Below are positions 4,474-39,574 of a stretch of 57,344 nt of DNA, piece by piece (positions within the stretch are counted from its first letter, which is position 1; each line of letters begins with the position of its first letter). The stretch comes from Tepidibacillus decaturensis (GTDB lineage Bacteria > Bacillota > Bacilli > Tepidibacillales > Tepidibacillaceae): assembly GCF_001561915.1 (NCBI RefSeq), contig NZ_LSKU01000001.1, positions 1,213,296 to 1,270,639 on the forward strand. The letters are read 5' to 3'. Position numbers and translations under genes: made by a program. The notes below the pieces were generated by a model that saw only the letters and a list, made by a program, of their open reading frames with translations, had not been told where the DNA came from and made no database searches.

Positions 4474-4502
4474 AAAAAAGAGCACCAAAGGTGCTCTTTT
4501 TT
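4474..4502 (-). terminator. Intrinsic terminator between asnS and dnaD
   Basis: A perfect stem, AAAAAAGAGCACC (4474-4486) with GGTGCTCTTTTTT (4490-4502), has a 3-base loop and T-runs on both strands. It ends the asnS transcript and can work in either direction. dnaD starts only 29 bp beyond it. Confidence 0.85.
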
Positions 4503-4503
4503 C

Positions 4504-4682
4504 AAATGTAAAGAAAGTATAACTTTCTTCCACTTGTCATTTAGGGGTTTGTATATTCCATAAGCTGCGACCTTCAGAAGTGCCCTTCTCTCCTTAATCT
4601 TTATTTATAGAAGGGCACGGATGACGGAGCGCGATGGAATATACAAACCTTTTCTTAAATGTAAAGAAAGTATTACGTTCTT
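4504..4682. repeat. Hairpin element bounded by 26-bp direct repeats
   Basis: Two near-identical 26-bp sequences (4504-4529 and 4657-4682, 24 of 26 equal) flank a long inverted repeat. The outer arms GGTTTGTATATTCCAT (4546-4561) and their perfect complement (4634-4649) enclose an inner pair, GTGCCCTTCT (4580-4589) and AGAAGGGCAC (4609-4618). It contains no ORF of note. It may be a small non-autonomous mobile element (MITE-like), a REP-type repeat, or a structured 3' untranslated region of asnS. A sequence resembling the direct repeat occurs at 39550-39574. Confidence 0.65.
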
Positions 4683-4695
4683 ATCTATTTTCATA

Positions 4696-5985
4696 TTATG
4701 GATATAAACGGTTGAGCAAACGCGGGAAGGGAATGGTTTCTCTTACATGCTCCAAACCGCAAATCCATGCAACTGTGCGCTCTAATCCTAATCCAAATCC
4801 TGAATGAGGTACTGAACCATATTTTCTAATATCTAAATACCACTTATAAGAATCGATCGATAGATGATGATCTTTAAATCGTTGTTCAAGCAAATTTGGA
4901 TCATCAATTCTTTGGCTACCGCCAATAATTTCTCCATAGCCTTCTGGGGCAATAAGATCTGCACATAAAACAACTTCAGGGCGATTAGGATCTGGTTTCA
5001 TATAGAATGCTTTTAATTCAGTAGGGTAATGAGTAATAAAGACAGGCTTCTCAAATTTTTCAGCAATTGCAGTTTCATGAGGTGCGCCAAAATCATCTCC
5101 CCATTGAATTTCATGGCCTTCTTCTTGTAAAAATTTAATGGCATCATCATACGTAATCCGTGGAAAAGGAGCCATAACTTTTTCTAGCTTAGAAATATCC
5201 CTATCAAGTGTTTGTAATTCTATCTTGCAATTTTTTAATACGGATTGAACAACATGTGAAACGAATTCCTCTTGAATTTTAAGATTTTCTTCATGATCAA
5301 TAAAGGCCATCTCAGGTTCAATCATCCAAAATTCTATTAAATGCCTTCTAGTCTTAGATTTTTCTGCACGAAAGGTTGGGCCAAAAGAATAGACTCTGCC
5401 TAAGGCCATCGCTGTTGCTTCCATGTATAATTGACCACTTTGTGAAAGATAAGCATCTTCATCAAAATATTTCGTGTGAAATAAATTAGTCGTTCCTTCA
5501 GCAGAAGTCGGAGTTAAAATAGGTGGATCAACCAATGTAAAACCATTTTGATCCAAATACTCTTGAATAGCACGAATAATTTCGCCTCGAATCTTTAAAA
5601 TAGCTCTTTGCCTAGGCGTTCTAATCCATAAATGACGATGATCCATTAAAAAATCAGTACCATGCTCTTTTTTAGTGATTGGATATTCTTCAGCAATTTG
5701 AATGATTTCAATCCCAGTTACGGAGAGTTCATAACCAATGTTAGATCGATCATCCTTACGAACAGTTCCTGTTACATACAATGAGCTTTCTTGGGTTAAT
5801 TGAGTAGCAGACTCCCAAACTTCTTCATAAACTTCGTTTTTCACAACAACACCTTGAATAAAGCCTGTTCCGTCACGAAGTTGTAAAAATTGAATTTTTC
5901 CGCTTGAGCGTTTGTTATACAGCCATACACCAAGTTTTACTTCTTGTTCAACATATTGAGCGATATCCTTTATCGTGGCTAACAA
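4696..5985 (-). CDS. asnS: Asparaginyl-tRNA synthetase
   Basis: Charges tRNA-Asn with asparagine. The 429-residue protein has an N-terminal OB-fold (residues ~15-100) and a class II catalytic core: motif 2 around [12 protein letters not shown] and motif 3 [10 protein letters not shown] near residue 400. Full length matches bacterial AsnRS, and the WMIEPEMAF segment after motif 2 is typical. Translation appears to start at TTG 5985, with GGAGGGG 8 bp upstream; there is no better ATG near the OB-fold. It follows aspB (aspartate aminotransferase) at 34 bp, the usual Bacillales order, so the two are probably co-transcribed. No T-box leader is seen before it. Confidence 0.95.
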
Positions 5986-39549: not shown

Positions 39550-39574
39550 AATGATAAAGAAAGGTAACTTTCTT
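39550..39574. repeat. Sequence related to the asnS-dnaD direct repeat
   Basis: AATGATAAAGAAAGGTAACTTTCTT resembles the 26-bp repeats at 4504 and 4657, including the palindromic AAGAAAG..CTTTCTT core. As there, it follows a gene ending in AAAATAGATA. Possibly one family of dispersed repeats; the similarity is short. Confidence 0.3.

Follow-up and report, generated by a model that had tools for sequence, protein, structure and literature searches.

What is the strongly base-paired, apparently non-coding stretch that lies between asnS and dnaD in Tepidibacillus decaturensis? An earlier note on the window (the whole 57,344-nucleotide stretch of DNA that was analysed) described nested inverted arms bounded by near-identical direct repeats, and read them as a MITE- or REP-type element or a structured RNA. 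We find that this intergenic element is one of about 60 copies of a short non-coding hairpin repeat in the genome. The repeat occurs in many copies and is missing from the orthologous site in relatives; its plus-strand fold is conserved, it is placed behind intrinsic terminators and gene 3' ends, and its orientation is biased with respect to replication. The best reading is that these non-autonomous interspersed repeats form a new family, specific to the lineage and of the BOX/bcr1/REP kind, BOX and bcr1 having been compared by description only.

The flanking genes were identified with NCBIfam as asparagine--tRNA ligase (asnS) and a DnaD-domain protein (dnaD). Both are on the minus strand, and the hairpin element is on the plus strand, opposite to both; the element thus has the asnS stop codon (4696) on one side and the bidirectional terminator of asnS (4474-4502) on the other, upstream of dnaD. 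The T-run of this terminator stops where the element begins, and we treat the terminator as context, outside the element. At this site the element is about 155 nt long, and its main hairpin 104 nt. Positions 4490-4700 fold with -67.6 kcal/mol, compared with -39.3 for shuffled sequences (z -6.7; 0 of 200 shuffles as good). The geometry described earlier was reproduced: perfect 16-bp outer arms (4546-4561 with 4634-4649, 100% complementary), perfect 10-bp inner arms (GTGCCCTTCT at 4580-4589, AGAAGGGCAC at 4609-4618), and direct repeats at 4504-4529 and 4657-4682 that are identical at 24 of 26 positions, a pair that a repeat finder stretches to 34 nt at 88%. The element is also free of any convincing ORF, as had been claimed, the only entries in the list of reading frames being dnaD, when extended to 4505 from a TTG, and a 57-aa ORF at 4634-4807. 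From left to right the parts are as follows.

4474-4502, no strand assigned: host bidirectional intrinsic terminator on the asnS side, with 13-bp perfect arms; the same kind is found behind asnS in the relatives G001-G004
4503-4529, plus strand: 5' module, an independent repeat made of a spacer and a small hairpin, AAGAAAGT-ATA-ACTTTCTT, at 4511-4529
4530-4545, plus strand: linker CCACTTGTCATTTAGG, present in most copies having the 5' module
4546-4561, plus strand: 5' arm of outer stem P1, a 16-bp perfect arm; 10 of the 16 pairs of this helix have changed on both sides
4562-4579, plus strand: 5' strand of the conserved core, AAGCTGCGACCTTCAGAA, from alignment A1 and the structure; paired segments with a conserved bulge, a U.C mismatch and a 3x3 purine loop
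4580-4589, plus strand: 5' arm of inner stem P3, with changes on both sides in 8 of 10 pairs
4609-4618, plus strand: 3' arm of inner stem P3, a 10-bp perfect arm with covariation
4619-4633, plus strand: 3' strand of the conserved core, GGATGACGGAGCGCG, whose motif CGGAYRACGRAGYGYR is recurrent in the genome
4634-4649, plus strand: 3' arm of outer stem P1, a 16-bp perfect arm with covariation
4650-4657, plus strand: right end, TTTTCTTA, which recurs as CC-TTTTYTTA where most subtype-1 copies meet their right flank
4657-4682, plus strand: second, degenerate 5' module, which is the right direct repeat (24/26 against 4504-4529)

Further copies are plentiful, both in this genome and in relatives. 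A covariance model (R1) built from 27 copies gave 65 rows in the genome itself, of which 6 are opposite-strand duplicates, leaving 59 distinct places. A blastn-type search gave 64 match rows, and the core motif CGGAYRACGRAGYGYR had 58 matches, compared with 2 in the control; these own-genome copy counts are lower bounds, as several copies enter masked stretches (for example L142 and L143). Fifty-one sequences were excised from the genome, G002 and G003 for alignment, 37 of them short forms and 14 long forms, in which about 53 extra nucleotides fold as two more hairpins within the outer stem. Mini forms of 47-62 nt exist too, and a 79-nt minimal hairpin form is recurrent in G004, where at one place (C78:61778-62036, L172) it stands in tandem with a 90-nt spacing.

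Hairpins of a second family, roughly CCCACAAAAGTAATCGGAATAYGCTTCGAAGGAGGTCGTCACTTTTGTGGG, were seen at L136, L140, L157 and L161 (from about 1520) and, in L003 and L009, on the right-hand side of the copies; they stand behind the same 5' module as the element has, or immediately behind the main hairpin, so that the modules form arrays. A local cluster at C1:2208268-2261614 (L030, L198, L199, L200) holds five copies with differing outer arms. Each has a truncated copy a short distance upstream, and the arms within a locus are alike, a pattern of concerted change.

The range of the family is narrow. Among 398 genomes of the class, the covariance model matched exactly the five of the same family, each of another genus, and had 0 matches in the 393 others, the filters of this search dropping weak matches. 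A pattern search of contigs found two places, on two contigs of one Tepidibacillus decaturensis MAG; these are the only named records found, and one of them has the same sequence and score as a copy in G003. Plasmid and phage records gave no blastn match to the element, and Rfam 15 gave none over the gathering score (the best sub-threshold match had 25.3 bits against a gathering score of 70). We found no published description of the element in the literature on bcr1, on Tepidibacillus and Vulcanibacillus repeats, and on intergenic Bacillus repeats, terminators and MITEs. In one viral contig (L218:1600-1740), GCGACTTTCGGAAGT...ACGGACAACGGAGTGC precedes a small ORF and the gene of a serine recombinase. 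The core words are alike, but the fold is not, model R1 does not match the contig, and we treat this match to the gapped core pattern as chance. Other viral matches to the L218 core have, by eye, no such hairpin around them, plasmids hold nothing similar, and a second gapped pattern, for the minimal form, had 0 matches in viral contigs.

The hairpin fold is conserved by compensatory change, and to this extent the structural suspicion of the earlier note was well founded. The two outcomes that the earlier note named as refuting it, a lack of other copies and a lack of compensatory changes, are both contradicted. In the 27-sequence alignment, 23 of 35 pairs have changed on both sides, and 96.3% of pair cells hold standard pairs. 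None of 500 shuffles reached any of five covariation measures, and controls with slid partners were at most 53% paired, with at most 7 pairs changed on both sides. All three helices vary (both-side changes in 10/16, 5/9 and 8/10 pairs), while the core between them, a U.C mismatch between C-Y and U-Y-R pairs together with the 3x3 purine loop, shows little variation; thus the outer and inner stems drift yet stay paired around a fixed core.

The plus strand is the one that folds well. Folded as RNA it does better than its complement in 57 of 60 distinct copies, by a mean of 5.5 kcal/mol, and with DNA parameters in 55 of 60, by a mean of 1.5. Paired positions hold 139 G.T against 28 A.C; these preferences are to be read with the alignment having been fitted to the model and the copies being related. 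The alignment used (A2) mixes strands, and its first 70 rows (60 distinct) were taken, 46 rows with opposite-strand matches or weak or short copies being dropped. The excess of G.T over A.C does not depend on the outermost pair or on one pair in which U.G is largely fixed; without these two it persists in own copies oriented with replication (32 against 8 in 26 copies), in own copies oriented against it (11 against 3 in 8 copies) and in copies from relatives (31 against 12 in 24 copies), a split that omits 2 of the 60 rows, from the terminus zone. Strand-biased C-to-T mutation is not supported as the cause, because unpaired columns show 18 C>T against 21 G>A, and because the plus strand folds better in 8 of 8 copies oriented against replication. 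The strand data favour a folded single strand, either RNA or ssDNA, over a plain cruciform.

Comparison with relatives bears on whether the element has moved. The asnS site is without the main hairpin in all four relatives (G001-G004), and a terminator of the same kind is kept there, the pattern of empty sites that goes with the mobile element first suspected. Between clpP and cysK, the genome has a copy directly behind the clpP stop codon; there G001 has a terminator only, G002 has other, diverged hairpins, and G003 has no such hairpin by eye in the 260 nt viewed behind clpP. In G004 an open reading frame, which we take to resemble an IS3-type orfA, lies between the two genes. The diverged hairpins behind clpP of G002 (L242), which occupy the orthologous position, share the core word AAGCTGCGACTTTAG and are followed by further repeats, so that the place is an insertion hot spot. 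Identity between genomes is also informative. Against G002, the asnS DNA is 77.9% identical and clpP 78.1%, yet two long copies of G002 are 93-97% identical to eight of the nine own long copies compared (73-76% to the ninth, which is divergent), and own long copies have a mean identity of 92% among themselves. With long copies at 93-97% and genes at about 78%, transfer or recent activity fits better than vertical keeping.

Copies lie at the 3' ends of genes. For the 52 of 59 copies with both neighbours, read with a simple ORF reader on the flanks and no annotation, 21 lie between convergent genes, 19 in tandem in the gene sense, 10 in tandem against it and 2 between divergent genes. With origin and terminus inferred from the GC skew of genome pieces only, 43 of the 55 chromosomal copies outside the terminus zone are oriented with replication and 12 against (43:7 without the local cluster at 2.2 Mb). 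Gene direction is a partial confounder here, the element following the genes 19:10 in tandem contexts; in convergent regions the ratio is 17:3 (p 0.003). The orientation bias fits insertion into the lagging-strand template, with gene sense a confounder. IS608 is described in PMC6006769 as inserting into the lagging-strand template.

On balance we favour a non-autonomous interspersed repeat that is spread by a trans-acting enzyme recognising the folded plus strand, and that is inserted beside terminator T-runs. The strongest rival is a structured RNA kept by the host, transcribed by read-through, whose 3'-end hairpin would stop transcription or protect the mRNA from 3'-5' decay. We think this unlikely. 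The far better folding of the plus strand as RNA, the position of copies at gene 3' ends and the U-rich stretch that ends subtype 1 all agree with it, but many module-bearing copies already stand behind an existing terminator, the U-rich end is lost in relatives, the asnS site is empty there, and no Rfam family reaches its gathering score. Moreover, the copies oriented against replication, mostly antisense to both neighbours, keep the plus-strand preference (8/8). As copies antisense to their neighbours retain this preference, we infer that it is the spreading element, rather than host transcripts, that is under selection.

Another rival is a classical MITE, in which the transposase of a DDE insertion sequence would move, as double-stranded DNA, a shortened derivative that arose from that sequence by deletion. 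The direct repeats are two copies of an independent post-terminator hairpin module, the left one belonging to the element and the right one being a second, degenerate module. The 19-nt hairpin of this module, AAGAAAGTATAACTTTCTT, also recurs independently, with 99 matches in the genome at three mismatches or fewer, against 8 in the control, although the hairpin is palindromic and many places are therefore counted twice in the 99. At 19 of 30 loci a T-run stands 5-11 nt ahead of the module, whether the module is alone or precedes the main hairpin, compared with 0 of 30 on the mirrored side, and a stable hairpin precedes this T-run in 17 of 30, again compared with 0 of 30. We rejected the direct repeats as a target-site duplication, the module being found alone elsewhere and in part already at the empty site of a relative. 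This empty site, at asnS in G002, already carries half a module, thus at least part of the module predates the insertion. The MITE explanation does account for a short, non-coding, multicopy and strongly base-paired element, but no target-site duplication was found in the 10 of 59 copies that could be measured (mean 1.2, compared with 1.31 by permutation), the long arms are internal, with the very ends sharing only about TAAGAAA, and a one-strand fold preference would be unexpected; we regard it as improbable. Least probable is a double-stranded DNA site or cruciform (a protein-binding, nucleoid or supercoiling element) multiplied by recombination, which has in its favour the perfect palindromic arms and the likeness of arms within a locus (2214526/2214652, 2215554/2215679) expected from gene conversion, but which would treat both strands alike, against the 139:28 excess of G.T that persists in every group. 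Nor is there a palindrome in the conserved U.C mismatch and the purine loop.

We return to the interspersed repeat spread in trans. The element looks like a small mobile parasite, and its probable mode of spread is as a folded single strand that is mobilised in trans. The plus strand would fold while single-stranded, either as ssDNA exposed on the lagging-strand template or as an RNA copy. A trans-acting enzyme would then recognise it by the conserved core that the large hairpin encloses, and the same enzyme would insert the element next to the T-run of a terminator, leaving the arms of P1 and P3 free to drift while remaining paired. A bolder version, which we put forward only tentatively, makes the element the first of a new class of minimal mobile elements. 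An enzyme unrelated to Y1 transposases and reverse transcriptases would move it, recognising it as a single strand (ssDNA or RNA) in its folded state by a conserved non-palindromic core, and the element would target the 3' flank of intrinsic terminators.

Searches for a Y1 transposase, a reverse transcriptase and TnpB found no mobiliser in the genome. Y1 transposase (PF01797) has 0 matches in both this genome (G000) and G004, and in G001-G003, which do have Y1 genes, the hairpin does not flank them; a REP/RAYT origin was rejected on these grounds. An omega-RNA of the TnpB (IS200/IS605-derived) kind was likewise set aside, the genome having only PF07282 fragments below the cut-off and no Y1. 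Group IIC introns insert next to terminator stem-loops, and the element resembles them in its placement; unlike them, it occurs in two genomes (this one and G004) from which reverse transcriptase (PF00078) is absent, and it has no Rfam group II intron match over the gathering score, so that a retroelement or group II intron was rejected as well.

The closest described kinds appear to be the BOX/RUP/SPRITE and bcr repeats, with which the element has in common size, modularity or 3'-end placement, and lineage restriction. The BOX, RUP and SPRITE repeats of Streptococcus pneumoniae, judged parasitic in the relevant passages of PMC3049150, are likewise modular short interspersed repeats with extensive secondary structure and a distribution with coding bias, and they, SPRITE above all, are enriched at gene 3' ends between convergent genes. 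The terminal inverted repeats and proposed IS link of BOX and RUP described there were not found here, in a comparison by described architecture only. Bcr1 and other BCRs of the Bacillus cereus group (100-400 bp, lineage-restricted, with features of mobile elements) are also similar; bcr1 has tens of copies per genome, and the passages of PMC6542083 concerned name no transposase. There the mobility of bcr repeats is tied to a TTTAT motif, whereas insertion here is at the point where a terminator T-run ends, with no sign of a duplication. The REP/BIME repeats with TnpA-REP (RAYT), and IS200/IS605, share palindromic structures recognised as a folded strand and a link to the lagging-strand template, according to PMC8266576 and PMC6006769; the Y1 results above set the element apart from REP/BIME. 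REPs are described in PMC3733652, in the part bearing on them, as palindromes of 20-40 bp with a GTAG or CGTC tag, in contrast to a main hairpin of 104 nt with, by eye, no such tag conserved at its foot. The interspersed repeat with a conserved fold that the MITE/REP-type suggestion implied therefore stands, but a MITE in the strict sense (no target duplication) and a REP (no RAYT link) do not, and we file the element as a new BOX/bcr-like family because defining features of MITEs (the target duplication) and of REPs (the RAYT) were looked for and not found.

The kind is thus already known; out of the routine are the strong one-strand covariation across genera, the sharp placement at terminators, and the failure of the Y1, reverse transcriptase and TnpB searches to find an enzyme. 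We know of no mobiliser for most short bacterial repeats. The present family is clean and spans the lineage, and in it mobility, structural selection on one strand and the targeting of terminators can be told apart. As five genomes share the element, two of them (this one and G004) without Y1 and reverse transcriptase genes, and as copies from different genera are up to 97% identical, a co-occurrence search for the enzyme and a core-binding test are both feasible.

The earlier note also pointed to a related word at 39550-39574. The likeness is to the 5' hairpin module only, and the covariance model finds no second full copy of the element in the window. At three mismatches or fewer, AAGAAAGTATAACTTTCTT has 5 matches in the window against 0.15 expected, of which 4 are the two direct repeats on both strands, and the word at 39550 is absent from these matches. 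It is a solitary palindrome, AAAGAAAGGTAACTTTCTTT, resembling the 5' module and lying between two same-strand ORFs, presumably polyprenyl synthase-like and methyltransferase-like.
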